A stretch of DNA of 45,440 nucleotides from a bacterium (GTDB taxonomy: Bacteria; Patescibacteriota; Microgenomatia; UBA1400; PJMF01), in the NCBI GenBank assembly GCA_017431625.1, contig JAFRKQ010000017.1:1-45440 (forward strand). The letters run 5' to 3'. Below the pieces are notes generated by a model that saw nothing but the letters and a program-made list of their open reading frames with translations, had not been told where the DNA came from and searched no databases. The translations under genes were made by a program, and so were the position numbers. Shown piece after piece: positions 1,806-27,480 of the stretch; positions within the stretch are counted from its first letter, which is position 1, and every line of letters begins with the position of its first letter.

Positions 1806-1834
1806 TTGACGAAAATAGCTATTTGTGTTAAAAT
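1806..1834 (+). promoter_or_regulatory. Promoter of the first alpha-2-macroglobulin gene (leaderless)
   Basis: TTGACG (1806-1811) and TAAAAT (1829-1834) are separated by 17 bp, with TGT directly before the -10. The ATG at 1842 is 7 nt after the -10, so transcription should start at or next to the A of the start codon. This also shows that the in-frame TTG at 1806 is the -35 box, not a start codon. Confidence 0.75.
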
Positions 1835-1841
1835 AAATAAT

Positions 1842-4800
1842 ATGACTAGAAAGTGGTTACGGTCATTGATTACGAGCATTCTTTTTTGGTTTTTTGCTTT
1901 TTCATCTATTACAGCCAACTATCAACAAGTCAGACAAATTGACTTTAATTTCACTCAAGATTATGGCACTCGATCTATTTTTGTGCCCCTAGGTCTTGAT
2001 GATCAGTTTCAATTTGATCGGCGTGACTTTAACAGTGATGCTGCCACTCTTAGTTTTTACCCTTTGACCCGCGATCAAGTATTGGACGCACTTATCCATC
2101 GTCAATATATGCTTGAGTGGTATTTTGATTTTGATCAATCAACGCCCAACTATCAAACTACTATTGGTCAGTTAGCTGATTATAATTATGTCCTTCCTTC
2201 TTCAGCCGTCAGTGGCAATGCTTGGTGGATACGCGCCCAAGATAATGGACGTGAGCAATATGCTTTAGTCACTAAACCAACTTTTGGTGCCGTTGTCAAA
2301 AACGGTCAAGAAAATCTTACTTTGTGGGTTCAGGACTTAGCTACCGGACAAGCCAGCCTTAGCGGTCGGGTGCAAATTTACAATCTCCAAGAAAAAATTA
2401 ATCTCTTGTATCAAACTGATTTTGTCAACGGCGAAGTTGTCACTTTACCTGATTTTACCAATGCCGATGTAATAGTCGTGACTACAGAAACTGACGCTTG
2501 GACAATAATTCCATTGCAGATTAATGGAGTTTATTTGCCCCGTGATGATGGCCCTTATAATTATGGGGATAATCATCCTTTTGATCCTACCGCTCGCGGC
2601 AGTGATTTGATTTATCACGCCAACAACTATCACTACGCATTTACTGATAAGCCATTATATCAGCGTGGTCAGACGGTTTATTTCAAGGCGTTTTTGCGCC
2701 GCGATGACGACGCCCGTCTCAGCGTAGTCACTGACCCAATCACCGTTAGTATAAAAGATCCAAATGACTACAAAAAAGTTTTGTGGAGCGAAACTTACAC
2801 TCCGGATGAATTCGGTGGTATCGATGGTCACTTCAAAATTCCTGATCATTACGAATACGGTTACTATAGTATTAACTTTGGCAATCAGGCCAGTGCCTAC
2901 TTCCAAATCAGTGAATATGTCAAACCAGAATACGAGCTTACTAGTGAGTGGATTTATGACAACAATGACAAAAAATTTGCTAGCGATTATGGACGCGAGA
3001 TTATTATTACCGGCGATCAACTTCAGGCCGCCATTACTGGTCATAGTCTCGCTGGCCACGCTATGAACGGCGCTTCATTTGAATACTGTTTTGAGAAAGG
3101 TTGGCTTTATGGGTGGGATCAAAATGAACCTGATTGTCAACAATGGCAGTGGGCCATGTTTGATGATGAGGGAAAAGCCACCTTAGAAATTCCTACGAAT
3201 TTACCCAAACAAAAAGAAGACTATGATCATTATCCCACTGACTATGAAGATTATCATTTGATTGTACGTTATGGCGATGGCGTCAGTGAGCCCACAATCA
3301 GTCACCAAAATATTTCTATTCATTACACTCCATTTATTGTCCAACTTGCAACTAATGATAATGAGACTTGGTATTTCCAAGCAAATGACACAATCGCTCT
3401 TAGTGGCCAAATAATTTCTCGCCGACCAAGCGTAGACGTCGCTAATAGACGAGTCACCCTTACGGCCCAAAGATACGAATACCCCCAATCAAATCAAAAA
3501 AAACTTATCGAAGAGATGATTTTTGACACGCGTACCGATAGCAGTGGTGAGTTTAAGTTTAATTTTACTCCAACAGCTTGCGATAGCTATTCATTAACTT
3601 TCCGCGTTTATGACGAGCACGGTTTGTTTAGTGAATCCAGCTCCAGTCGCTGGTGCGACCAAGAGAATAATGATTGGTATCAGTATGCGCGAAATCCTTT
3701 CACTACGGATACTGACAGCAGTTTACAGCTTGACCTTAACAAAAAACACCGTTATGTTCCTGGGGAAACTATCACTATTGGCTATAATGTGGGCAAAAAT
3801 CTAATTGGACGCCGTTTTTGGGCCAATTTTGGTCGCCAAAGACTTGATCGTTATCAAGTGGGCACTTTCACCAATGCCAAAAATGAAGTTACTTACACCA
3901 TAACTGATACTGATCAACCCAACACCTATCATGAAGTTTCCACTTTTGACCGCAATAACTATTTATCACGAACAGCAGAAATTAATATGGAATCTGATCT
4001 GAAAAAAATAAAAGTCGAAATCACCACTGATCGCGCTATTTATAACCCTGGCGATACTGTTAAAGTTACCGTCAAAACTCACAATCAAAAAACAGGTGCC
4101 CCCGTGCGCTCCAGCGTCACTTTATGGACTATTGACAAAGCTTTACTACAATTGGCCAGTAATAATCGCAGAGAGATTTTTGATTATTTTTGGTTTACAC
4201 GTTATCACGGCTTGCGCACTTATCATTCACTGCAGACTATTAGTACCTATGGCGCTGAGGGTGGCGGCGGAGGCGGTGATGATTTGCGTGAAATTTTTAA
4301 AGACACTGCTTTTTGGCAACCAAAACTTTTAACTGATGCCAATGGTCAAGCCCACGCCGAATTTACTTTGCCAGACAATCTTACCACTTGGGTATTGACT
4401 GGTGTAGCTGTTGGACCAGAGACTGTTGTTGGCGAAAGCACGTATGAATTTGTTGTTCAAAAAGATGTGGTGGCAAGATTGATTGCTCCCGAAAGATTGC
4501 GTGTTGGCGATGTTTCTCGCTTAGGGTTTATGATCACCAATTATACTGACTACACTCAGAGTTTGACTCCAGTGTGGGAAGCTGGTGAAGGCTTACAAAC
4601 AGGTGATACTTTTCCTAGTGTCATCACTCTCAATCCTGGTGAAACACAAACATTTACCGTACCCGTCAAGGCTATTGCTCCTATGAATGAGACCAGAATT
4701 ACTACTGGCGTGCGCAACATCAGTGCCAATGGTCCCGGCGATGTACTCACCAAAACTATAAGTATACTCCCTTTTGGCTATCAACAAAAAACCAGTCAGT

Positions 4801-6608
4801 TCTCTATGCATGCGGGTGAATACAATATTGGTCTGCACACTGATAGTGATTTGAGTCGTTCCACGCTTGTAGTTAGTATAGCTGGTGATATTTTTGCCAG
4901 TCTCAAAACTGCCATGAATGAGTTGCTTGATTATCCGCGCGGTTGTGTCGAGCAAACTGCCAGCCGTTTGTTACCAGCCCTGATGGCTCGTGAGCAAAAA
5001 TTATTTGCTGATACCAAACTCGTTAATGATCCCAACGAATTGATTAGTGCCGGCATTAAGAATCTTACCAAACTGCAAAATAGCAATGGCGGTTGGGGTT
5101 TTTGGGAACCAAACGGTCAAGCTGATCCGTTCAAAACCACTTATGCTCTCAAGATTTTACTTCAAGCCAATAGTGATGCCACTCCAGTTGATCAGCAGGT
5201 TTTGCAAAAGGCTGCCGAGTATCTTACTGGTGTTTTGACAGGTGATATCAAAGATGAAGATAATCAAGAACTCAATCGCGATGACGCTAATATCGTTGCC
5301 AGCGTCTATGGCTTACTCCTCTATCTTAACGCTACACCAGTACAAACAACTAATGCCATCACCAACCGTTTAACTCCACAAGTAGCGGCTAATACCTATT
5401 ACTCGCGACTCAACTCTCTGCAATTAAACGACGTTGATTTGTTGTCTTGGGCGGTACAAGCCAATCTCCTTAAAGGAGATCAGATTAGCGCCAAGCGTCA
5501 CCTCGAACAAATGTTACAGGCGTTGGATCAAAATCAACTTGTTGATAGCAGTGAGAATTTAAATCGCTATCGCAGTGCCGATGCCGACATGGCTTTAGCT
5601 TTACAAGCCTTAGTGGCTTACCAAAAAACCTATGGTGGCTATGATAATTTACTAGAAAAATATGTCACCCAACTTTTGGGTTATCGTCAGAACGCCGGTT
5701 GGCGTAATACTTATGCCACTGCCGCCGCCATTGAGGCACTCGCTTCGTGGGCTGATTTGCAACCAACACTCAATCACAACAGTGGCGCCAGCTATGCTTT
5801 GCGTTTAGGCTCGCAAACTTTGGGTTCAGTTGACTTTAGTTCAAGCACACGCGAAAAAACTTTTCATATTCCCCTCGATGGTGTTCACCCGGGAGATGTG
5901 CTGACACTTATACGCACCGATAGGGGTGAAGATACACCCGTGTATGTCACGATCACCACTGATCAATGGCGCACAGCTATCAATGACCCACTGACAAGCG
6001 ATAAGCTCAAAATCCACAAAGCTTTTGTGCGTTCGAACAGTTACCGCGGTCAACCATTAACTCCTGGCGAGATCGTGACGGTATATTTAGGGATTGAAAA
6101 TTACGGTCGAACTCAATATTTTGTTAATATTGATGATTATTTGCCCAGCAATTTACGTCCACTTTCCCGCAACAATGATACTTGGGCCCATCGTAATTTT
6201 ACTTTTACTGGTTTCAATGGTGCGTTATACCAGTTGCCACCAGGAATGACGATTGTATCCTATCAAGCCATGCTCACCAATGTCGCCGATCAAGTCAGCA
6301 ATCAACCTACACTAGTGGCCTCTATGTATGATAGTGATTTTGTGGCACAAACAGCACTCACCGATCAAGTTACCTTCCTGGATAAACAGCCAGCTTGGAT
6401 TCTTAAGGGCAATACTGACTATGCTGACACCGTGATTGAAAAGCCGCACTCGACTATCAATTGGGGAGTGATTGTCGCGCTCTTGGTGGTGAGTGGTGTT
6501 GGTGCTGGTTGGTGGTATTATCGTCATCACTCCTCTCGGCATCAACAGCCACCGCTATCATCCACTGACAATAATCAAGATACACCACAAAGAGTAGACT
6601 TGTGGTAA
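1842..6608 (+). CDS. Surface alpha-2-macroglobulin with intact thioester motif (paralogue 1)
   Basis: The 1,588-residue protein has an N-terminal signal or anchor segment (about 8-25), a long run of MG-type beta domains, a glycine run at about 806-811 followed by DDLREIFKDTAFW in the region that carries the bait segment, the thioester motif GCVEQ with the reactive Cys at about 1035, an alpha-toroid with GGWGFWEPNG, a C-terminal MG domain, a transmembrane helix at about 1540-1560 and a short basic tail. In this family protease cleavage of the bait exposes the Cys-Gln thioester, which covalently traps the protease. Gram-negative homologues such as YfhM are periplasmic lipoproteins partnered with PBP1C; this one carries a C-terminal membrane anchor and has no PBP1C gene nearby. 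I chose ATG 1842 because the upstream in-frame TTG lies in the -35 box. A close paralogue lies 1.9 kb downstream. Confidence 0.93.
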   Translation: MTRKWLRSLITSILFWFFAFSSITANYQQVRQIDFNFTQDYGTRSIFVPLGLDDQFQFDRRDFNSDAATLSFYPLTRDQVLDALIHRQYMLEWYFDFDQSTPNYQTTIGQLADYNYVLPSSAVSGNAWWIRAQDNGREQYALVTKPTFGAVVKNGQENLTLWVQDLATGQASLSGRVQIYNLQEKINLLYQTDFVNGEVVTLPDFTNADVIVVTTETDAWTIIPLQINGVYLPRDDGPYNYGDNHPFDPTARGSDLIYHANNYHYAFTDKPLYQRGQTVYFKAFLRRDDDARLSVVTDPITVSIKDPNDYKKVLWSETYTPDEFGGIDGHFKIPDHYEYGYYSINFGNQASAYFQISEYVKPEYELTSEWIYDNNDKKFASDYGREIIITGDQLQAAITGHSLAGHAMNGASFEYCFEKGWLYGWDQNEPDCQQWQWAMFDDEGKATLEIPTNLPKQKEDYDHYPTDYEDYHLIVRYGDGVSEPTISHQNISIHYTPFIVQLATNDNETWYFQANDTIALSGQIISRRPSVDVANRRVTLTAQRYEYPQSNQKKLIEEMIFDTRTDSSGEFKFNFTPTACDSYSLTFRVYDEHGLFSESSSSRWCDQENNDWYQYARNPFTTDTDSSLQLDLNKKHRYVPGETITIGYNVGKNLIGRRFWANFGRQRLDRYQVGTFTNAKNEVTYTITDTDQPNTYHEVSTFDRNNYLSRTAEINMESDLKKIKVEITTDRAIYNPGDTVKVTVKTHNQKTGAPVRSSVTLWTIDKALLQLASNNRREIFDYFWFTRYHGLRTYHSLQTISTYGAEGGGGGGDDLREIFKDTAFWQPKLLTDANGQAHAEFTLPDNLTTWVLTGVAVGPETVVGESTYEFVVQKDVVARLIAPERLRVGDVSRLGFMITNYTDYTQSLTPVWEAGEGLQTGDTFPSVITLNPGETQTFTVPVKAIAPMNETRITTGVRNISANGPGDVLTKTISILPFGYQQKTSQFSMHAGEYNIGLHTDSDLSRSTLVVSIAGDIFASLKTAMNELLDYPRGCVEQTASRLLPALMAREQKLFADTKLVNDPNELISAGIKNLTKLQNSNGGWGFWEPNGQADPFKTTYALKILLQANSDATPVDQQVLQKAAEYLTGVLTGDIKDEDNQELNRDDANIVASVYGLLLYLNATPVQTTNAITNRLTPQVAANTYYSRLNSLQLNDVDLLSWAVQANLLKGDQISAKRHLEQMLQALDQNQLVDSSENLNRYRSADADMALALQALVAYQKTYGGYDNLLEKYVTQLLGYRQNAGWRNTYATAAAIEALASWADLQPTLNHNSGASYALRLGSQTLGSVDFSSSTREKTFHIPLDGVHPGDVLTLIRTDRGEDTPVYVTITTDQWRTAINDPLTSDKLKIHKAFVRSNSYRGQPLTPGEIVTVYLGIENYGRTQYFVNIDDYLPSNLRPLSRNNDTWAHRNFTFTGFNGALYQLPPGMTIVSYQAMLTNVADQVSNQPTLVASMYDSDFVAQTALTDQVTFLDKQPAWILKGNTDYADTVIEKPHSTINWGVIVALLVVSGVGAGWWYYRHHSSRHQQPPLSSTDNNQDTPQRVDLW

Positions 6609-8521: not shown

Positions 8522-11500
8522 ATGATGCGCAACTGGAGCAGCAAATTATTTTTAGCGATGGTCTTTTTGTTTTTGGCTCTCGCTCATAGTCGAGCTGCCA
8601 CTCAAACCAAAACTGTCGCTTTTAATTTCGGCGCCAATTGGTCTCGCTCTTTACTAGTGCCTTTTGGTTTGGATGAGAATTTAAAATTTGATCCGGAAGA
8701 TTTTCGCACCTGCATTAATCCCGAAAAATCTTGTCATCAGGATAATTACCGCGAGCATCCCGAAGCACAATTAACTATTTATGCGCTCACAAAAGACCAA
8801 CTCTTACAGACACTCGTTCATGATGAAAATTGGAATGCCCGCCCTTGTGGCGACTATGCCAATAATTATCAGCAGATAGTAACTACCACTCTGGGCGCTC
8901 TCGCTCATGACAACTACGAGCTGAAAGTCGATGGCTTTGGCGCTTGGTGCGTGGTGGCTCAAGTGGATAGTCACATTCAGAGTGCGCTTTTTACTCGCTC
9001 GCCGATTGGTGCGATGCTTAAAAACACTGACGATGCTTTGGTCTTATGGTCTCAGGATTTGGCGACAGGCAACCAAATTTTTCATGGCAGCGGCAAGTAT
9101 TATTCTCTTTTGGGACAAGTGAATTTATTGGGTGAGTATAGCTTTGGTGATGATCAACTAACAGTTGTTCCTTACCTGGAAAATGCGGATATTATGTTGG
9201 TGGAGACTGATCGCGGCTACGCTTTGATTCCTTTGGGACTTTATGATTTGGGCTATCAAAACAGTGACGATCACTGCCGTTACAGCCGCTGTCGCGCTAG
9301 AGAAATCTATCGCCCTAGTGAGCGTGACTACGTTTTTACTGACAAGCCGCTTTATCAGAGAGGACAAAAAATATATTTCAAAGCTATCGTGCGTACTGAT
9401 GATGACGCTCGCTATCAACCGCGTCAAGAAGCAATTCCTGTGAAAATTTTTCGTGGTTATTGGGGCGAAAACGATGAAGATCTAGTGTGGCAGCAAAACA
9501 TGACTCCAGATGGATATGGGACGATAGCCGGCGAGTATACAATTCCTCAAGACTGGGATTTTGATTACTATCGTTTGGTGCTTCCAGGAGGTAGCCGTAG
9601 CTTTAACGTGAGTGAATATGTCAAACCGGAATATACGCTGACAATTGACGCACCTACCACCCACACTGTTTCTGGTGATCCACTTGGCGCCACTATCAAT
9701 GGCGAAAACTATTCTGGTCAACCTATGATTGGCTATCAAATCGATTGGTGTTGGCAGTCTGGTTATGAAGGGGGTTATGGTGTTCCTAGTTGTAATAACT
9801 GGCAAAGCACTATTTTGAATTCGCAAGGCCAAGCCCAGCTCACCCTCCCAGGAACACTAGAGCGACGCGACAACGACTATTACAATAGTGCTCGCTATTA
9901 TTTGCTCATTCGTCATAGTGATGGCGCTAGTGAACCCACCTATGAAAGTAGGAATTTTACCATTGATTACACACCTTTTTCTTTTGTGTGGGATAGTCAG
10001 GACAGCAAATGGCAAATAGGACAGCCAAGCAAAATCAGTGGGCACATCGAGTCTAGTCGAGCCAATGTTAGCCCTGCCAATCGACAAGTCAAAATGCACG
10101 TTGATGTCCACGACCATGTTGGTAAAGAATATAAACTAATATCAACTGCTGATTTGCAAACTACCACTGACACTCAGGGTCATTTTAGTTTTGACTTTAC
10201 CCCGAAAAATTATGGTAATTATCACTTATCATTTAGTGTTTATACCAATGACTACCTGTATACTACTAGCAGCCTTTATCGTACCATCTCTCATCAAGCT
10301 GCCCCAACTCCTACGCCAATTAGTAGTCAACAAGATGATGACCATAGTCGAGATTTAGCTCTAGATCTTGAAGGAACACAATTAACCAGTGATGATCAAA
10401 TAACTGCTAATTTTGCAGTGGGCACAGAGCTAGAAAAGCGTAATTACTTTCTTGGGTTTGGCCGTCAAAGATTGGATCGCTGGGCTATAGACAATTTCAC
10501 CAGCGCCACCACAACACGCCGCTATGATCTTGATGACGCCGACTATCCTAATACTTATGCCGAGGTTTCACTTTTTAATCGTAATGCTTATCAATCCACG
10601 AGTAGTGAGATAGAAATGGATAAACGCGCCAAAAAAATAGCTTTGCAAATTAGCACTGATCGTGATGTCTATCACCCCGGTGAGCAAGTCAAAGTCAAAA
10701 TACAAACTCGCAATGAACTTACTGGACAACCAATGTCTGCCCAAGTAACACTTTGGACTATTGATGAGGCACTTTTGGCTCTCGAAAGCGATAGACGACC
10801 AGAAATTTCTGAGTTTTTCTGGTTTGAGCGTTATCATTGGATTCAAACTTTCCACTCACTCGAATCCCTCGGTCTCTATGGTGCTGAAAGGGGCGGTGGG
10901 GGCGGTGGCGATGATCTGCGCGATATTTTCAAGGACACTGCTTATTGGAATCCCAATATTGTCACTGATGACAATGGTATAGCTGAGATTGAGTTTACGC
11001 TACCAGACAATCTCACCAGTTGGATTCTTACTGGTGTGGCTACCACCGCGCAAACTGAAGTTGGTGAGGCGCAAACGCGTTTACAAGTGAAAAAAGATAT
11101 TGTGGCGCGCATTTTGGCTCCAGAAAAACTGCGTGTCGGCGATCATTTTGACCTGGGTATTATTGCTAGCAATTTCACCGATCAAGCAGAAACTTTTCGC
11201 TTGACATGGCATGCCGACTCTGCTTTGCAAACTCTCAGCAGTCTTCCAGAACCCTTTGTGATCCAACCTCACAGTAGCGTAACTATCACTCTGCCCACCA
11301 AAGCCGTAAGTGAGAACACGCAAGTAAAAATCACGGCTGGAGTGGAAAATTTGTTTCATCCAGAATTGAGTGATAGTTTGATCAAAACAGTGGAAATATT
11401 ACCTTATGGTTATGAACAAAAAACTTCACACTTTGCACTACGTCCCACTACCATACCTTTGGAGATCAAACCCGATACCCAAGCTAAGCGTTCACATTTG

Positions 11501-13330
11501 GAAGTGGACATTGCCACTGATATTCTTTCAAGCCTGCGTACAGCCATGAAAGATCTACTTGTTTATCCTCACGGTTGCGTAGAACAAATAACTAGCAAAT
11601 TAATCCCGATTTTAATGGTACGCAATTATGAGCTATTTGCAGCCAATGATTTTGAGGTGAATTTAGATGACCTTACCCAACAAGGAATTAAAAATTTAGC
11701 TAAATTACAAAATTACAATGGCGGTTGGGGATTCTGGGAACCAAAAGGCAATAGTCACACTTTCAAAACAACCTATGTTGTCAAATACTTATTGCAAGCT
11801 AATAATGAACAAACACCAGTTGACAGTGCGATCTTTACAAATGCAGCCGCTTATCTTCGCGACCAACTCAAACAGTTTAATCAAGTCAGTGATGTTCGCC
11901 GGCTTACCCCTAGTCAAATCAGCAAACTTACAAGCAGTCTTTACGGACTCCAATTGATCGATCAAGCACTCGCCGACGATAATTGGGAACCATGGCAGCT
12001 CGATACTTCTGGTCTTAAACAACCAAGTTTTTATCATCAATTGCTCAAAGATACACAAATTCAAGACACTGATATTTTATCATGGTTGGTAGAGAGTGAT
12101 TTGTTATTTAATGATCAGACGGCCGCTAGCCAACATTTACAACAGATGTTAGCCAGTTTGGACGTGCCACGTGAATATAGCGATGAAAACTCGGCCCGTT
12201 ACCGTAGCGATGAGAGCGATTTAGCTCTAGCCGTACAAGCACTCGTTGCCTACAGTCAAGCTTACGGCGAGCGGCCGGAACTTGACACCCTCGTGACTCA
12301 ACTTTTGGCTGTGAGAAAGCATGCTGGCTGGTTGAGTACTTTTGCCACCGCTCAAGCCATCGAAGCTCTGACCAAATGGCGTCAATATCGTCCCGAAAAC
12401 ATTATCCTCGATCACTATCAAATATTACTAGATAACCAAGTTATTGGTGACATAGATTTTGCCAAAACTAATAAACAATACCAACATTTTAGTTTTGATT
12501 TAGACAAACTAAAATATAAACAAGGACAACTGGAAATCAAAAGTGTCAATGCTAGCAGTAGTCCTGTTTTTACCACCGTAAATTTAAGTCAGTGGCGCAC
12601 TAGCAGCAACGACGCTCTCACCAATGATCAACTCATAATTCACAAAGCTTATGTGCGTGAAGGTCAAAATGCAAATCAGGCTCTCAAAAATGGTGACGTT
12701 ATTACCATCTATGTGGGATTGGAAAATAAAGGTCGCAAGCGTCATTATGTTACCTTTCAGGACTATCTACCTGCCAATTTGCGCCCCTTATATGCCAATA
12801 ACCACAATTGGCATGGACAAATTTTTAGTTTTACTGGCGTGAGTGGTACTTTTAACATTTTACCAACTGGTATGACTCTTGTCTCTTACAAAGCAGTGGT
12901 AACCAATACTCATCAACAAGTCTCAGTATTACCAACCAGTGCCAGTGCTATGTACGAACCCAATTTTGCCGCGCGAACTGGAATGACCGAAAATTGGCAA
13001 TTTGTGAGCGAACGCCCCTCTTGGGCATATCAAAAGCATCCAACTGACAACCAGGTAATAACCAGTGTCACTGTTGACGACATTGATTTAATGTCAGAAA
13101 TCGAGTCAACTCAAACGCCAAAGACGACATCCACTTGGTGGTTGTTTGTCGCCACATTAATCATGATCACTGTCATTACCATAATAATAGCAATGCGTCT
13201 CTATCCTTTAGCTATCCGACGTCTGTGGCTGCGACTAAAAATTGCAGCGCTGACAGTTAGACAAAAAATGAATCACCAGCAGTCGAATAAAAATACGCCA
13301 GAAAGTCATCATGAACAAGAATCCAATTAA
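8522..13330 (+). CDS. Surface alpha-2-macroglobulin with intact thioester motif (paralogue 2)
   Basis: This 1,602-residue paralogue is collinear with the first. It has an N-terminal signal segment ending near HSRAATQT, MG domains, YVFTDKPLYQRGQ near residue 275, a glycine run with DDLRDIFKDTAYW near residue 790, the thioester motif GCVEQ with Cys at about 1019, GGWGFWEPKG in the toroid, and a C-terminal transmembrane helix (about 1537-1558) followed by a ~44-residue basic tail. The expected role is covalent trapping of attacking proteases at the outer face of the membrane. The bait-containing region and the N-terminus differ most from paralogue 1, consistent with different protease targets, but that is inference. 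The last 20 bp overlap the Memo-family gene, indicating co-translation. No serine-protease or PBP1C gene is adjacent. Confidence 0.93.
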   Translation: MMRNWSSKLFLAMVFLFLALAHSRAATQTKTVAFNFGANWSRSLLVPFGLDENLKFDPEDFRTCINPEKSCHQDNYREHPEAQLTIYALTKDQLLQTLVHDENWNARPCGDYANNYQQIVTTTLGALAHDNYELKVDGFGAWCVVAQVDSHIQSALFTRSPIGAMLKNTDDALVLWSQDLATGNQIFHGSGKYYSLLGQVNLLGEYSFGDDQLTVVPYLENADIMLVETDRGYALIPLGLYDLGYQNSDDHCRYSRCRAREIYRPSERDYVFTDKPLYQRGQKIYFKAIVRTDDDARYQPRQEAIPVKIFRGYWGENDEDLVWQQNMTPDGYGTIAGEYTIPQDWDFDYYRLVLPGGSRSFNVSEYVKPEYTLTIDAPTTHTVSGDPLGATINGENYSGQPMIGYQIDWCWQSGYEGGYGVPSCNNWQSTILNSQGQAQLTLPGTLERRDNDYYNSARYYLLIRHSDGASEPTYESRNFTIDYTPFSFVWDSQDSKWQIGQPSKISGHIESSRANVSPANRQVKMHVDVHDHVGKEYKLISTADLQTTTDTQGHFSFDFTPKNYGNYHLSFSVYTNDYLYTTSSLYRTISHQAAPTPTPISSQQDDDHSRDLALDLEGTQLTSDDQITANFAVGTELEKRNYFLGFGRQRLDRWAIDNFTSATTTRRYDLDDADYPNTYAEVSLFNRNAYQSTSSEIEMDKRAKKIALQISTDRDVYHPGEQVKVKIQTRNELTGQPMSAQVTLWTIDEALLALESDRRPEISEFFWFERYHWIQTFHSLESLGLYGAERGGGGGGDDLRDIFKDTAYWNPNIVTDDNGIAEIEFTLPDNLTSWILTGVATTAQTEVGEAQTRLQVKKDIVARILAPEKLRVGDHFDLGIIASNFTDQAETFRLTWHADSALQTLSSLPEPFVIQPHSSVTITLPTKAVSENTQVKITAGVENLFHPELSDSLIKTVEILPYGYEQKTSHFALRPTTIPLEIKPDTQAKRSHLEVDIATDILSSLRTAMKDLLVYPHGCVEQITSKLIPILMVRNYELFAANDFEVNLDDLTQQGIKNLAKLQNYNGGWGFWEPKGNSHTFKTTYVVKYLLQANNEQTPVDSAIFTNAAAYLRDQLKQFNQVSDVRRLTPSQISKLTSSLYGLQLIDQALADDNWEPWQLDTSGLKQPSFYHQLLKDTQIQDTDILSWLVESDLLFNDQTAASQHLQQMLASLDVPREYSDENSARYRSDESDLALAVQALVAYSQAYGERPELDTLVTQLLAVRKHAGWLSTFATAQAIEALTKWRQYRPENIILDHYQILLDNQVIGDIDFAKTNKQYQHFSFDLDKLKYKQGQLEIKSVNASSSPVFTTVNLSQWRTSSNDALTNDQLIIHKAYVREGQNANQALKNGDVITIYVGLENKGRKRHYVTFQDYLPANLRPLYANNHNWHGQIFSFTGVSGTFNILPTGMTLVSYKAVVTNTHQQVSVLPTSASAMYEPNFAARTGMTENWQFVSERPSWAYQKHPTDNQVITSVTVDDIDLMSEIESTQTPKTTSTWWLFVATLIMITVITIIIAMRLYPLAIRRLWLRLKIAALTVRQKMNHQQSNKNTPESHHEQESN

Positions 13331-23624: not shown

Positions 23625-25295
23625 CTAGCTAGTCGCAAGTGAACGCTTGACTTTGCCAGTACTGGTACGTGGTAGCGAGTCCACCAATTGCCAATCCACA
23701 ATCGCTTTATACTTTATGTTTGTTGCATTGACTTTATCTACCACTGCACCAATAAGTTTTTCCAGTTTACCGGCAGCTGGCTTAGTACCGAGTTCTGGAT
23801 GCCTTTTGCTAATTGCTGCCTGGTCAGCTACAATCAAAGCCGCCACTTTGGTATCATCATCAATGACTTTGCCGTACACTAAAGCTTCACGAATTTCCGG
23901 TTGGCAGCTAAGATGATATTCCACTTCTTCTGGGTATATCTTTTTGGCGTTTTTGCCCACAATGACATTTTTCTTGCGCCCTACGATATACAAAAATCCA
24001 TCTTCATCAAAACGACCATAATCACCAGTGTGCAACCAATTATCGATAATGGCTTTGTCAGTCTGACGTTCATCTTTATAATAACCCAACATCACATTGG
24101 GACCACGGACGATCACTTCGCCAATACCATCGCCATCAGCTTCAAATATTTTGACGCGCACATTGGGCAGGGGCATACCAACACTGCGCGGTTTGTAGTA
24201 ACAATCAGGATTCATCGATACCACTGGCGCACACTCAGAAATACCATAGCCTTGTAGCAACTTAATACCCGCTTGATCATAAGCCTCAGCAATGTCACTA
24301 TTAAGCGGCGCTCCACCATCAATAATTCGTGTGAGACGACCCCCAAAATATTCACGCAAAGCGCTACCAACTGCGGCTTGATCTTTAGGATCAGTAACGC
24401 TGGCGCAAACTCGTTTGTAAGTTTCCTCCACAATCAAGGGCACAAGCACCAATACACTGGGGCGTACCTTTTGTAAATTCTCATGAAACTTGGGCAAACC
24501 ACCGGTCATATAGTATATAGTACTGCCCACGTAGATTTGAAAAAGTAAACCCACCATGAATTCATACGAATGATAAAGTGGCAACATTGACAGTAAAGTC
24601 TCATGGTCAAATTCATTCAGTTGTTTCATGCCAAAGACATCTGCTGTTAAATTTTTGTGCGTAAGCATCACTGCTTTTGGTGTAGAAGTCGTTCCCGAGG
24701 TAAAAATCAAGGTTGATAATGTTTCTGGGAAAACTTTGACGTCATCATACATGCCCGCATTTTTCCGCAATTGTTTGACTCCCAATTGTTGGATTTTTTC
24801 CAAACTAATAGATGCTTGCTGACTGTGATCAATACTAATATAGTGTTTAATTTTGGCCAATTGCGTTTTGAGCTGCTTGATTTTATCATCAATATCACTG
24901 GTGAAAATCAGTGAACTCACACCAGCCCGCTGCATAAAAGCCAAAAGGTCTGCTGTTGGCAAATTGGGGTCAAGCGGTACGATGATGTGATTGATCGTTG
25001 TGACAGCCAAGTAACAAACTGACCACCAATAACTATTGGGCGCCAAAAGAGCAATTCGTTTGCTGTCGCGCCGACCAAGATCAATTTTAAGTGCATTAAC
25101 CAAACCACAGGCAACCTCTTGAATATCTTGGCGGTAGCGGGCATACGAAATGCGCCGAGTTTCCTCCCCCATTGCTTCTTGATAAATAAAAGCTGGACGT
25201 TCACCATACTGGACAGCGGCGAAATCAACTAGCGATTTCAAATCCGCTACTGGCGTGGCGTGATAAAGTCCGAAATCGTATTTAGTCCTTGACAT
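23625..25295 (-). CDS. AMP-forming acyl-CoA ligase (FadD-like)
   Basis: The 556-residue protein belongs to the ANL superfamily. It has the P-loop IFTSGTTSTPKAVMLTHKN (about 190), GYGISECAPVVS (about 330), the ATP-binding HTGDYGRFDEDGFLYIVGR (about 410), and the catalytic C-terminal Lys region TSTGKVKRS. It activates a carboxylic acid, most likely a fatty acid, as an acyl-adenylate and passes it to CoA or another thiol. The start at 25295 (MSRTKYDFG) has GAGG upstream, preferable to the longer frame to 25322. It is divergent from an acyltransferase/E1-like pair with 76 bp between the starts. No fatty-acid synthesis genes are in the window, so scavenged fatty acids are a plausible substrate. 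Confidence 0.88.
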   Translation of the reverse strand: MSRTKYDFGLYHATPVADLKSLVDFAAVQYGERPAFIYQEAMGEETRRISYARYRQDIQEVACGLVNALKIDLGRRDSKRIALLAPNSYWWSVCYLAVTTINHIIVPLDPNLPTADLLAFMQRAGVSSLIFTSDIDDKIKQLKTQLAKIKHYISIDHSQQASISLEKIQQLGVKQLRKNAGMYDDVKVFPETLSTLIFTSGTTSTPKAVMLTHKNLTADVFGMKQLNEFDHETLLSMLPLYHSYEFMVGLLFQIYVGSTIYYMTGGLPKFHENLQKVRPSVLVLVPLIVEETYKRVCASVTDPKDQAAVGSALREYFGGRLTRIIDGGAPLNSDIAEAYDQAGIKLLQGYGISECAPVVSMNPDCYYKPRSVGMPLPNVRVKIFEADGDGIGEVIVRGPNVMLGYYKDERQTDKAIIDNWLHTGDYGRFDEDGFLYIVGRKKNVIVGKNAKKIYPEEVEYHLSCQPEIREALVYGKVIDDDTKVAALIVADQAAISKRHPELGTKPAAGKLEKLIGAVVDKVNATNIKYKAIVDWQLVDSLPRTSTGKVKRSLATS

Positions 25296-25371
25296 ATTAC
25301 GTTCCTCGTTTATAATCACCAATAATTTATAACTGTTAAAGTTGTACTACAAAAATAATAGAAAGTCAAAT

Positions 25372-26121
25372 ATGAATTTTGCACCCAATATGACTCAAAT
25401 ATATCTAAATAATATAAAATCACGAATTCATGATGAGCAAATTATATTGATAGCAAGGGAATTAATTCACCAGATACCACCAGATTTTAATTGGCAAAAA
25501 ACTGCTGTGACATTTCGGACACCAATTGACAGCGATTGGCCCCAATTGCAAAAAATCATCACTCTGGCCTATCAAGGACGTTATGCCAATCCTCACGAGA
25601 AACACACTTTTAGTTTGGGGGAAATTGACGTTAGTTCACACATTCGTACCATCATTGCCGCTCACCCTTTAGTGGCTCACCAAAAGCATCAGCCTGCAGA
25701 AATCATTTTGGGCACCGTCAGATTGGTACCAGAACGACTTGAACTTTTTGATTTTTTTGACATTGATGGTGGTTGGCCGGCTCAATACCAAAACCAGACT
25801 CCATATGAATTTGAGCGACTCGCTTTTCATCCACTTTTTGATGTGCTGCGCGATAATGATTGGCGCGCATTTATTTTGCGTGGTCTCATTCATCAAGCAC
25901 TCGAGACTCTCAATTTGGAAACGGCGTGGCTAGCTTGTACCATGAATCCTCATGTCAAAAAATTTATGGATCGGCTTGGGATTAAAACTCAAGAAATTAC
26001 CGCTGCTACCATGCGCGATAATGATATTATTCGCTACCAAAAACAACATTGGCCCGATTACTTTGCTGTCGCCCGGCCTTATGTGATTGACAAAGAAAGT
26101 TTGTATGTCAAAACCAAGTGA
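25372..26121 (+). CDS. GNAT-fold acyltransferase, possibly N-acyl amino acid synthase-like
   Basis: The 249-residue protein has a GNAT-type core with ILGTVRLVPERLELF near residue 105, YEFERLAFHPLFD near 145 and IHQALETLNLETAWLAC near 175, then CTMNPHVKKFMDRLG, the usual end-of-fold strand and helix. The 'FERLAFHP' strand and the long N-terminal helix recall the FeeM/autoinducer-synthase branch, which transfers long acyl chains from ACP or CoA to amino groups; an ordinary acetyltransferase is the alternative. ATG 25372 has GAAAG about 7 nt upstream and is preferred over the TTG at 25342. The stop overlaps the next gene by about 17 bp. Confidence 0.6.
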   Translation: MNFAPNMTQIYLNNIKSRIHDEQIILIARELIHQIPPDFNWQKTAVTFRTPIDSDWPQLQKIITLAYQGRYANPHEKHTFSLGEIDVSSHIRTIIAAHPLVAHQKHQPAEIILGTVRLVPERLELFDFFDIDGGWPAQYQNQTPYEFERLAFHPLFDVLRDNDWRAFILRGLIHQALETLNLETAWLACTMNPHVKKFMDRLGIKTQEITAATMRDNDIIRYQKQHWPDYFAVARPYVIDKESLYVKTK

Positions 26122-27439
26122 TGAGCAAATTTGGCAGGAACTCATTGATCAAGACTGGAATTTGCAGCATCTGCGCCAGCGACTCACCCATCCGCTGACC
26201 CACTATCCCTATCAGCCACTCTTGCTTACTCACGAAGAACTTAAAAATACTCGTCTTTTTGATTTGACAGATGAATACCTGGATATTCAAATCAATAGTC
26301 ACGAGCTCCATTTCACCACCAAAAAATTCTATTCTCTTATTGAGTCTACTCATGCCAAACTCAAAGAAAATCTGTCAGCAACTAACGGTCCTGTTTTTGA
26401 TTACTTGCAACATGAGTTTGCCACTTATGAAACGCTCGCCGATAAAAGAGATTATGGTTTTTATGCTTTTTATTTTACGAGAAGCGGCGAGTTAGAAGCA
26501 CTAGTGCAATTCCCACCAGTGCCCACCTGGAAATTAGCACTGTGTTCCAGTCCTGGTCAACTCTTACAAAATCAAGACTACACTTGTTCGTGGTTGCAAG
26601 CGCGCTTACTTTTTGCCCGCAGTCATATCTTAGTTGCCGGAGCCAGTGTCGCTAGTGCCACGGCCGAAAATCTCATTCGCGATGGTCGAGTAGGTAGCAT
26701 TACTATCAGCGATCCTAAGTCGCCCAATGCTACTAATTTCAATCGTACCAATTATGACGTGATGGATATCGGCAGTGACGAGCCTAAAGCTATTAGTTTT
26801 GCCAGACGCATGCACCGTCAGGATCCCACACAAATTATTTACATTTATCGCGAAAGTATTAATGAACATAATTTTGCGAACATACTTGCAGGTGACCAGA
26901 AACGGCCAGCAGTAAATGTTTGCGTGGAGGCGATTGACACTTTGGCCGACAAACTGGCGATCTTGCAAATTGCTGGGCAAGCACAAGTACCAGTGGTGCA
27001 AATTTCCGATGTGGGTTCTATTGCTCAAATCTCTTTTCAAAATGCTTTATCGCGAGCGCGAGGCGAGAGTTTGATTTTTGGTCTGTCCGACCAAAAACTC
27101 CGCACGCTCTTACAACAAGATTTTGTTCAAGTAGCAGCACGCATGGTGGGTTTGGAAAATGCGATTAAAGACGAATTGGGCCGCTGGGTCGCGGGCAGAA
27201 AAAATACTCCCTTTGGTATCGCTATGCCGCAAATGGGCAGCACTGCTAGTGTAGCTGCCGGTATTGCCAGCGAAAAAATTCTCCGTTTCTTGCTTGATTG
27301 TGGGCGAGGACAAGAATTTCCTTACAAGCGTATCACTATTGACAAAAAAAACAATCGCTTTCACTCGTATCATGTTCCTAGTTTGCAAGAGCGAGCTTTG
27401 GGATTGGTAATGACTATTAAAAACAGAAAGAAACATTGA
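26105..27439 (+). CDS. ThiF/E1-like adenylyltransferase with an unassigned N-terminal domain
   Basis: The 444-residue protein has about 165 residues of unassigned sequence followed by a ThiF/E1-type Rossmann domain. The nucleotide loop ILVAGASVASATAENLI lies near residue 178, then ITISDPKSPNATNFNR (the Asp and the NxxR segment that contact ATP in this family), a Lys in DEPKA and an acidic VCVEAID. Family members adenylate the C-terminus of ubiquitin-like proteins or a small carboxylate. No CxxC zinc pair and no obvious catalytic Cys position are visible, so simple adenylation fits better than full E1 chemistry. The Rv1355c-like group is the closest I can recall. It is translationally coupled to the upstream acyltransferase and followed by a strong terminator, so the two form a bicistronic unit. 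Confidence 0.68.
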   Translation: MSKPSDEQIWQELIDQDWNLQHLRQRLTHPLTHYPYQPLLLTHEELKNTRLFDLTDEYLDIQINSHELHFTTKKFYSLIESTHAKLKENLSATNGPVFDYLQHEFATYETLADKRDYGFYAFYFTRSGELEALVQFPPVPTWKLALCSSPGQLLQNQDYTCSWLQARLLFARSHILVAGASVASATAENLIRDGRVGSITISDPKSPNATNFNRTNYDVMDIGSDEPKAISFARRMHRQDPTQIIYIYRESINEHNFANILAGDQKRPAVNVCVEAIDTLADKLAILQIAGQAQVPVVQISDVGSIAQISFQNALSRARGESLIFGLSDQKLRTLLQQDFVQVAARMVGLENAIKDELGRWVAGRKNTPFGIAMPQMGSTASVAAGIASEKILRFLLDCGRGQEFPYKRITIDKKNNRFHSYHVPSLQERALGLVMTIKNRKKH

Positions 27440-27443
27440 TCTT

Positions 27444-27480
27444 GACTGCGGAGCTCGGTGCGGAGCTCCGCAGTCTTTTT
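27444..27480 (+). terminator. Strong rho-independent terminator after the E1-like gene
   Basis: A perfect 13-bp stem, GACTGCGGAGCTC/GAGCTCCGCAGTC, closes the loop GGTGCG and is followed by five T. Its inner GAGCTC stem and GGTGCG loop are identical to the hairpin at 6671-6696. Confidence 0.92.

Follow-up and report, generated by a model that had tools for sequence, protein, structure and literature searches.

A candidate lipid-amino-acid gene set in Patescibacteriota, and kinase-linked ThiF cassettes in the same phylum

Why should a bacterium of the phylum Patescibacteriota, with a genome of 1.14 Mb, keep a fatty-acid ligase, an acyltransferase and an E1-like adenylating enzyme next to one another, and what might the three make together? 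The genes in question lie on contig JAFRKQ010000017.1 (C19) of assembly GCA_017431625.1 (genome G000, 96% complete); by 'the window' we mean the whole stretch analyzed, all 45,440 nucleotides. One gene encodes a FadD-like ligase, P0003; divergent from it run two overlapping genes, for a GNAT-fold acyltransferase, P0001, and a ThiF/E1-like enzyme, P0002. The module exists as first described, is conserved in relatives and is rare. Probably it serves lipid-amino-acid biosynthesis, in a manner that resembles the first two steps of the acyl-oxazolone pathways (OxzAB, TyzACB, TrzAS) with the oxidase missing; the individual reactions, the product and any signaling role are what we infer. The novelty lies in the gene neighborhoods: elsewhere in the phylum, TrzS-like ThiF genes recur in a cassette with a histidine kinase that has a seven-transmembrane (7TM)-type sensor. 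It is this link to a sensor that surprised us, and it makes a signaling role testable.

Conservation and identity of the three genes

Among 89 relatives searched, P0002 found matches in seven and P0001 in three: the window genome itself, G001 from the same genus and G003 from the same family. In all three of these GNAT-bearing genomes, which belong to one family, the GNAT gene adjoins the ThiF gene and the FadD gene diverges from them, and so the co-occurrence in relatives by which the initial annotation had proposed to judge its module is there. Gene order is the same across two genera even though the ThiF proteins are only 43–54% identical. The GNAT and ThiF reading frames overlap by 17 bp in the window (26105–26121) and by 23 bp in G003; in G001 (L003/L012) the two form one reading frame, with a single in-frame TAA within the ThiF part. 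Recurrence of GNAT, ThiF and divergent FadD in three genomes of one family argues for more than chance. Could the genes nonetheless have been retained independently, as neighbors with no common pathway? The restriction of the triad to three species speaks for this, but the order kept in two genera at such low identity, the overlaps in two genomes and the fusion in the third all speak against it, as does the ligase: in G000, G001 (76% complete) and G003 alike, no AMP-binding gene other than this FadD was found. Mere coincidence strikes us as barely credible.

P0003 is an acyl-CoA ligase of the ANL type by its match to the AMP-binding family PF00501 (232 bits, cut-off 29.9); its C-terminal domain, PF13193, scores 21.3 bits, just under the cut-off of 24.5. 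An AMP-binding gene is present in seven of 42 genomes of the family—in all three with the triad and in four of the 39 without it, two of these four matches being weak—and in 21 of 88 genomes across the order.

P0001 is recognized by its motifs and its predicted fold. G-T-x-R-L and P-Y-E-x-x-R-L-A-x-H-P are kept across the three GNATs, motifs that we take to resemble the LuxI/FeeM core. An AlphaFold model built from three sequences (predicted local distance difference test, pLDDT, 65) has the GNAT fold, and FeeM (2g0b_C) ranks third among its structural matches (Z 9.7, root-mean-square deviation 4.4, 140 residues aligned). The best Pfam match, T_hemolysin, is sub-threshold (18.2 bits, cut-off 27), and neither P0001 nor P0005 passes the Pfam cut-off for FeeM (PF21926). 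When the GNAT profile was compared by HHalign with a pooled set of FeeM-type proteins from other loci, E was 1.3e-4 over 199 columns, at a probability of only 27%; against two FeeM subsets, and against single proteins of L014, L104 and L135, there was no match. Searched against solved structures by sequence, P0001 found none, and its profile gave two rows, both at chance level.

P0002 matches ThiF (PF00899; E = 2.6e-12, 46.9 bits, cut-off 28.1), and seven residues are invariant in seven ThiF homologs: G179, D203, N211, N213, R214, K228 and D278 (P0002 numbering). Among them are those to be expected, as in MoeB, at an ATP-binding and adenylation site (Asp, N-x-N-R, Lys, Asp). The match above cut-off, together with the ATP-site residues, places P0002 in the E1/ThiF superfamily. 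Its best NCBIfam match is NF005901, the Rv1355c/TrzS family, at 45 bits, far under the 476-bit cut-off. D278 aligns with Asp 212 and Asp 199 of two TrzS-family proteins, and from its position in these relatives, rather than from a direct alignment, we take it to be the likely counterpart of Asp217 of Mycobacterium smegmatis TrzS. The N-terminal part, about residues 1–165, is longer than in the TrzS relatives. Against solved structures P0002 gave a weak sequence match to TcdA; the predicted model of the ThiF protein, again from three sequences, has a pLDDT of 38. In the ThiF tree—a quick one, with long branches—the triad proteins form one clade (support 99) whose sister is the ThiF protein of G056 (support 99). 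No relatives of P0002 were found in plasmids or in viral contigs. As a separate matter, two ThiF genes on Streptomyces plasmids match the ThiF protein of locus L060; at one such plasmid locus (L113) a TrzS-like ThiF gene overlaps a GNAT gene by 4 bp, in a stretch without an annotated oxidase.

The E1/ThiF/MoeB fold classically serves protein conjugation and sulfur transfer, and some GNATs modify peptides. P0002 might then adenylate a peptide or small protein at its C-terminus, and P0001 might modify it. We consider this distinctly improbable: no conserved small carrier is found in the trio among the open reading frames (ORFs) compared, those of 80–100 amino acids (aa) or more; the cysteine that precedes D278 in P0002 varies within the trio; the best family match is TrzS, not MoeB or ThiF; and the FadD gene is left unexplained. 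A sulfur-carrier role of the MoeB/ThiF kind was set aside as well, with neither carrier, conserved cysteine nor MoeB-type match to recommend it.

A proposed route from fatty acid to oxazolone

What the enzymes might do together can be read from better-known pathways. According to the available text of the original report, in Mycobacterium tuberculosis TyzA N-acylates Tyr or Phe, the ThiF protein TyzB cyclizes the product with ATP, and TyzC, an oxidase of nitroreductase fold, desaturates it (PMC10404671). Tryptazolones are made by TrzA and TrzS, the latter a fusion of ThiF and oxidase; Asp217 of TrzS is required for cyclization, and cyclization comes before desaturation (accessible parts of PMC12856293). 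The oxazolone ring is opened by acid and by alcohols (PMC12856293). By analogy, FadD would convert a scavenged fatty acid to acyl-CoA or acyl-AMP, and the GNAT would transfer the acyl group to an amino acid, at its amino nitrogen. The free carboxylate of the resulting N-acyl amino acid would be adenylated by the ThiF-like enzyme; the amide oxygen could then attack, closing a saturated 5-oxazolone, or the activated carboxylate could be handed to some other nucleophile. The desaturation of the known pathways would be absent. Much of this the initial annotation had foreseen: its acyl-CoA formation, N-acylation and carboxylate activation correspond to steps demonstrated for acyl-oxazolones, insofar as the available portions of PMC10404671 and PMC12856293 describe them, and the adenylation residues are kept. 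Its final step, a 'further coupling', is more simply read as intramolecular cyclization.

The missing oxidase decides how the set is to be classed. Pfam model PF00881 has no match in G000, G001 or G003, but it also missed the oxidase gene of G056 and so was judged too insensitive; a profile of nine cassette oxidases (A6) was used in its place. By this profile, too, the three triad genomes have no flavin oxidase of the nitroreductase superfamily, while at least one is found in six of the 12 genomes searched. The window set is a variant of the acyl-oxazolone pathway, not a member of it; we do not file it as a member because the oxidase is lacking and the product cannot be seen.

An enzyme that activates the carboxylate of an N-acyl amino acid might equally couple it, as amide, ester or thioester, to a second molecule—an envelope lipid, a peptide or a polyamine—and so build an envelope lipid rather than a signal. 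The absence of a flavin oxidase fits such coupling, and the longer N-terminal part of P0002 could bind the second substrate. But the characterized ThiF homologs that stand next to N-acyltransferases cyclize, on the evidence of what is accessible of PMC10404671 and PMC12856293, and the conserved set has no gene for an acceptor or for export. We think coupling unlikely, and cyclization the better reading.

ThiF cassettes with 7TM-type kinases

A profile of seven ThiF proteins found matches in 67 of 379 genomes of the phylum. Apart from the window, 45 matches are strong (E up to 5.3e-39), and 44 of their loci (L059–L102) were compared, a fragment at a contig edge in G184 being excluded. Within 7 kb of these ThiF genes lie a PaaK-like ligase at 39 loci, a histidine kinase at 37, a nitroreductase-like flavin oxidase at 33 and a receiver at 15; some of the seven kinase-less loci are on short contigs. 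A gene resembling tryptophan dehydrogenase occurs at 13 loci and an ammonia-lyase at nine, one or the other at 22, and the two never share a locus (hypergeometric 0.025, 44 loci). A rough estimate of the kinase linkage arising by chance is P of about 6e-52, on the assumptions that each 0.95 Mb carries 1.5 such kinases and that the genomes are independent; kinship is ignored. Counted by the N-terminal 7TM region itself (PF16927), a kinase lies within 6 kb of ThiF in at least 30 of the 45 strong places and at least 12 of 21 weaker ones.

In locus L060, from the window's phylum, the ThiF protein (397 aa) scores 352 bits against the TrzS family, the oxidase 201 against the C-terminal part of TrzS and the dehydrogenase 257 against the tryptophan dehydrogenase ScyB; the lyase of L062 reaches 599 against FlxA, a tyrosine ammonia-lyase. 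All four scores are under the curated equivalog cut-offs. The G056 locus has a receiver, a flavin oxidase, ThiF, a 7TM-type kinase and a small protein; the last reads to us as GNAT-like and has no Pfam match.

A second branch of shorter ThiF proteins, about 260–345 aa (support 97), is separate from that of P0002. Its loci, L120–L136 among them, have FeeM/LuxI-type acyltransferases nearby and the same type of kinase. Proteins near ThiF pass the PF21926 cut-off in L106, L121, L124, L126 and L128, and the L124 acyltransferase passes that for autoinducer synthases as well. FeeM-type enzymes beside ThiF point to a product derived from an N-acyl amino acid rather than to a homoserine lactone. This group, of about 270 aa, was counted as support for the kinase linkage and not for P0002 itself. 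In L123, L125, L127 and L130, a protein between ThiF and kinase reads to us like a methyltransferase.

How does this touch the window? The kinases of L060 and G003 both pass the PF16927 cut-off, and in G003 the kinase gene lies directly 3' of ThiF. The kinases of G000 (contig C24) and G001 (C12) are reciprocal best matches at 52% identity; the G003 kinase is the next match of both, at 44%, and the following cassette kinase among those listed reaches at most 31%. Across the order, a PF16927 match is present in nine of the 10 genomes with an A1 ThiF match versus six of the 78 others (Fisher 8e-8, kinship ignored). For comparison, genomes that lack an A1 ThiF match supplied 20 control loci with a PF16927 kinase; two of these have a FeeM-type neighbor, and so this type of kinase is not tied to ThiF alone. 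In one genome without such a ThiF match (L154), a 7TM-type kinase directly follows a protein that we read as resembling a CqsA-type ketosynthase. In L014, L016 and L017, proteins that cluster with PilB and PilC are encoded close to the cassette kinase or receiver, a hint of pilus control as output.

The product of the triad is plausibly sensed by the 7TM-type kinase, which would act with the receiver protein encoded beside FadD; a homologous receiver regulator adjoins FadD in G003 (L013) also. We infer, then, a self-made signal read by a kinase of this type, and the initial annotation's idea of signaling gains support from the kinase linkage. A bolder generalization would make all these loci one family of oxazolone-type communication systems. 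In it, a ThiF/TrzS-like cyclase and an interchangeable acyl supply—FadD with GNAT, FeeM, or a PaaK-like ligase with tryptophan dehydrogenase or tyrosine ammonia-lyase—would make a signal for a co-encoded 7TM-type kinase and hence a receiver, possibly controlling surface pili or contact with a host. We offer this tentatively, and the odds are somewhat against it.

A number of findings weigh against our interpretation as a whole. The triad is rare: a named collection of 84,980 species holds two matches besides the window, three species in all, and a GNAT profile search of the 379 phylum genomes returned one match, in the window's own genome, with G001 and G003 absent both from its matches and from the rows listed. 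The in-frame TAA in G001 may mark a decaying gene, or else a wrong assembly or a sequencing error. P0001 reaches the cut-off of no Pfam family, FeeM (PF21926) included, and the FeeM score of its fold is tied with those of ordinary acetyltransferases. P0002 sits on a long branch, and its TrzS match is remote. With no recognizable flavin oxidase in G000, G001 or G003, the standard desaturated oxazolone is not to be expected as a product. And the window genes have no neighboring kinase, the orthologous kinase of G000 being the one on C24, nor is that of G001 adjacent to ThiF.

If the recurring pairing of cyclase and kinase means what it seems to, it supplies a direct candidate receptor for acyl-oxazolones, and oxazolones would gain a defined signaling function. 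Very small, dependent bacteria, poor in biosynthesis, would still be paying for a dedicated lipid-amino-acid product, and that cost would suggest that they make contact with hosts or kin, or communicate with them.

Layout of the locus and comparison with known systems

The features of the locus are collected below. The gene positions, the divergent FadD, the overlap of about 17 bp and the strong terminator were all correctly described at the outset. The span first proposed for the module, 25295–27439, covers GNAT and ThiF and omits both FadD and the receiver regulator, which lies behind FadD on the same strand, separated from it by 42 bp. The leader has a single match in the window; with two mismatches allowed, 0.8 are expected by chance, and so the match is within chance. 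Elsewhere in the window are two very long ORFs on the plus strand, at 1806–6608 and 8522–13330, of 1600 and 1602 aa.

Table 1. Genes and signals at the FadD–GNAT–ThiF locus of the window
Feature	Position	Strand	Basis or remark
Single-domain receiver (response regulator), 127 aa	23199..23582	-	PF00072, E = 1.4e-21
P0003, 556 aa, FadD-like ligase of the acyl-CoA or acyl-adenylate-forming kind	23625..25295	-	PF00501, E = 1.1e-68
Promoter-like site, sigma70-type, TTGACA-16-TATAAT, before GNAT-ThiF operon	25289..25316	+	Consensus 12/12
Leader GAAAGTCAAATATG spanning GNAT start	25361..25374	+	Also precedes GNAT in G003; near-identical in G001
P0001, 249 aa, acyltransferase of GNAT fold and candidate N-acyl amino acid synthase	25372..26121	+	Motifs, predicted fold
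P0002, ThiF/E1-like adenylating enzyme, 444 aa, proposed carboxylate-activating cyclase	26105..27439	+	PF00899
Intrinsic terminator, 13-pair stem, then TTTTT	27444..27475	+	3' of ThiF

The initial annotation put the module forward as a candidate undescribed one, and this is not supported: publications on Actinomycetota, Pseudomonadota and Planctomycetota already give the logic of acyltransferase plus ThiF, to go by the accessible parts of that literature. Cassettes of ThiF and kinase in this phylum are another matter; no description of them was found in the titles and abstract openings of the papers listed, in a library that for the most part lacks subscription papers and preprints.

One of the closest known systems is TrzAS (Rv1356c/Rv1355c) of Mycobacterium and Rhodococcus. 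As proposed for the window, an N-acyltransferase stands beside a ThiF-like, ATP-dependent cyclase, in the available text of PMC12856293, and the adenylation Asp is common to P0002 and the TrzS family. It differs in that TrzS carries a fused flavin oxidase, of a kind not found in the window genome, and the window adds FadD and a receiver. In the same text, the discoverers leave the role of acyl-oxazolones unresolved and remark on their resemblance to acyl-homoserine lactones (AHLs) and other cell–cell signals. TyzACB (Rv2336/Rv2337c/Rv2338c) resembles the window in that acyltransferase and ThiF protein, here the cyclase, are separate, the former with an FeeM/AHL-synthase fold in an AlphaFold model; its third gene is a flavin oxidase, however, and the set, so far as the accessible text describes it, has no ligase (PMC10404671).

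In the clusters of NasY, ThiF and nitroreductase from producers of stieleriacines, thalassotalic acids and kyonggic acids, an N-acyl amino acid synthase adjoins ThiF, as is proposed for the window, and in some producers the genes overlap. They differ from the window in having the nitroreductase; no oxazolone was seen from the producers, and the word 'ligase' does not occur in the main text, as available (PMC12479983). A 2020 survey in mSystems describes 18 LuxI homologs of the candidate phyla radiation (CPR) that adjoin a sensory kinase, LuxI-like acyltransferase and kinase being proposed as signal synthase and receptor; ThiF is not mentioned in its main text, in the form available (PMC7567580).

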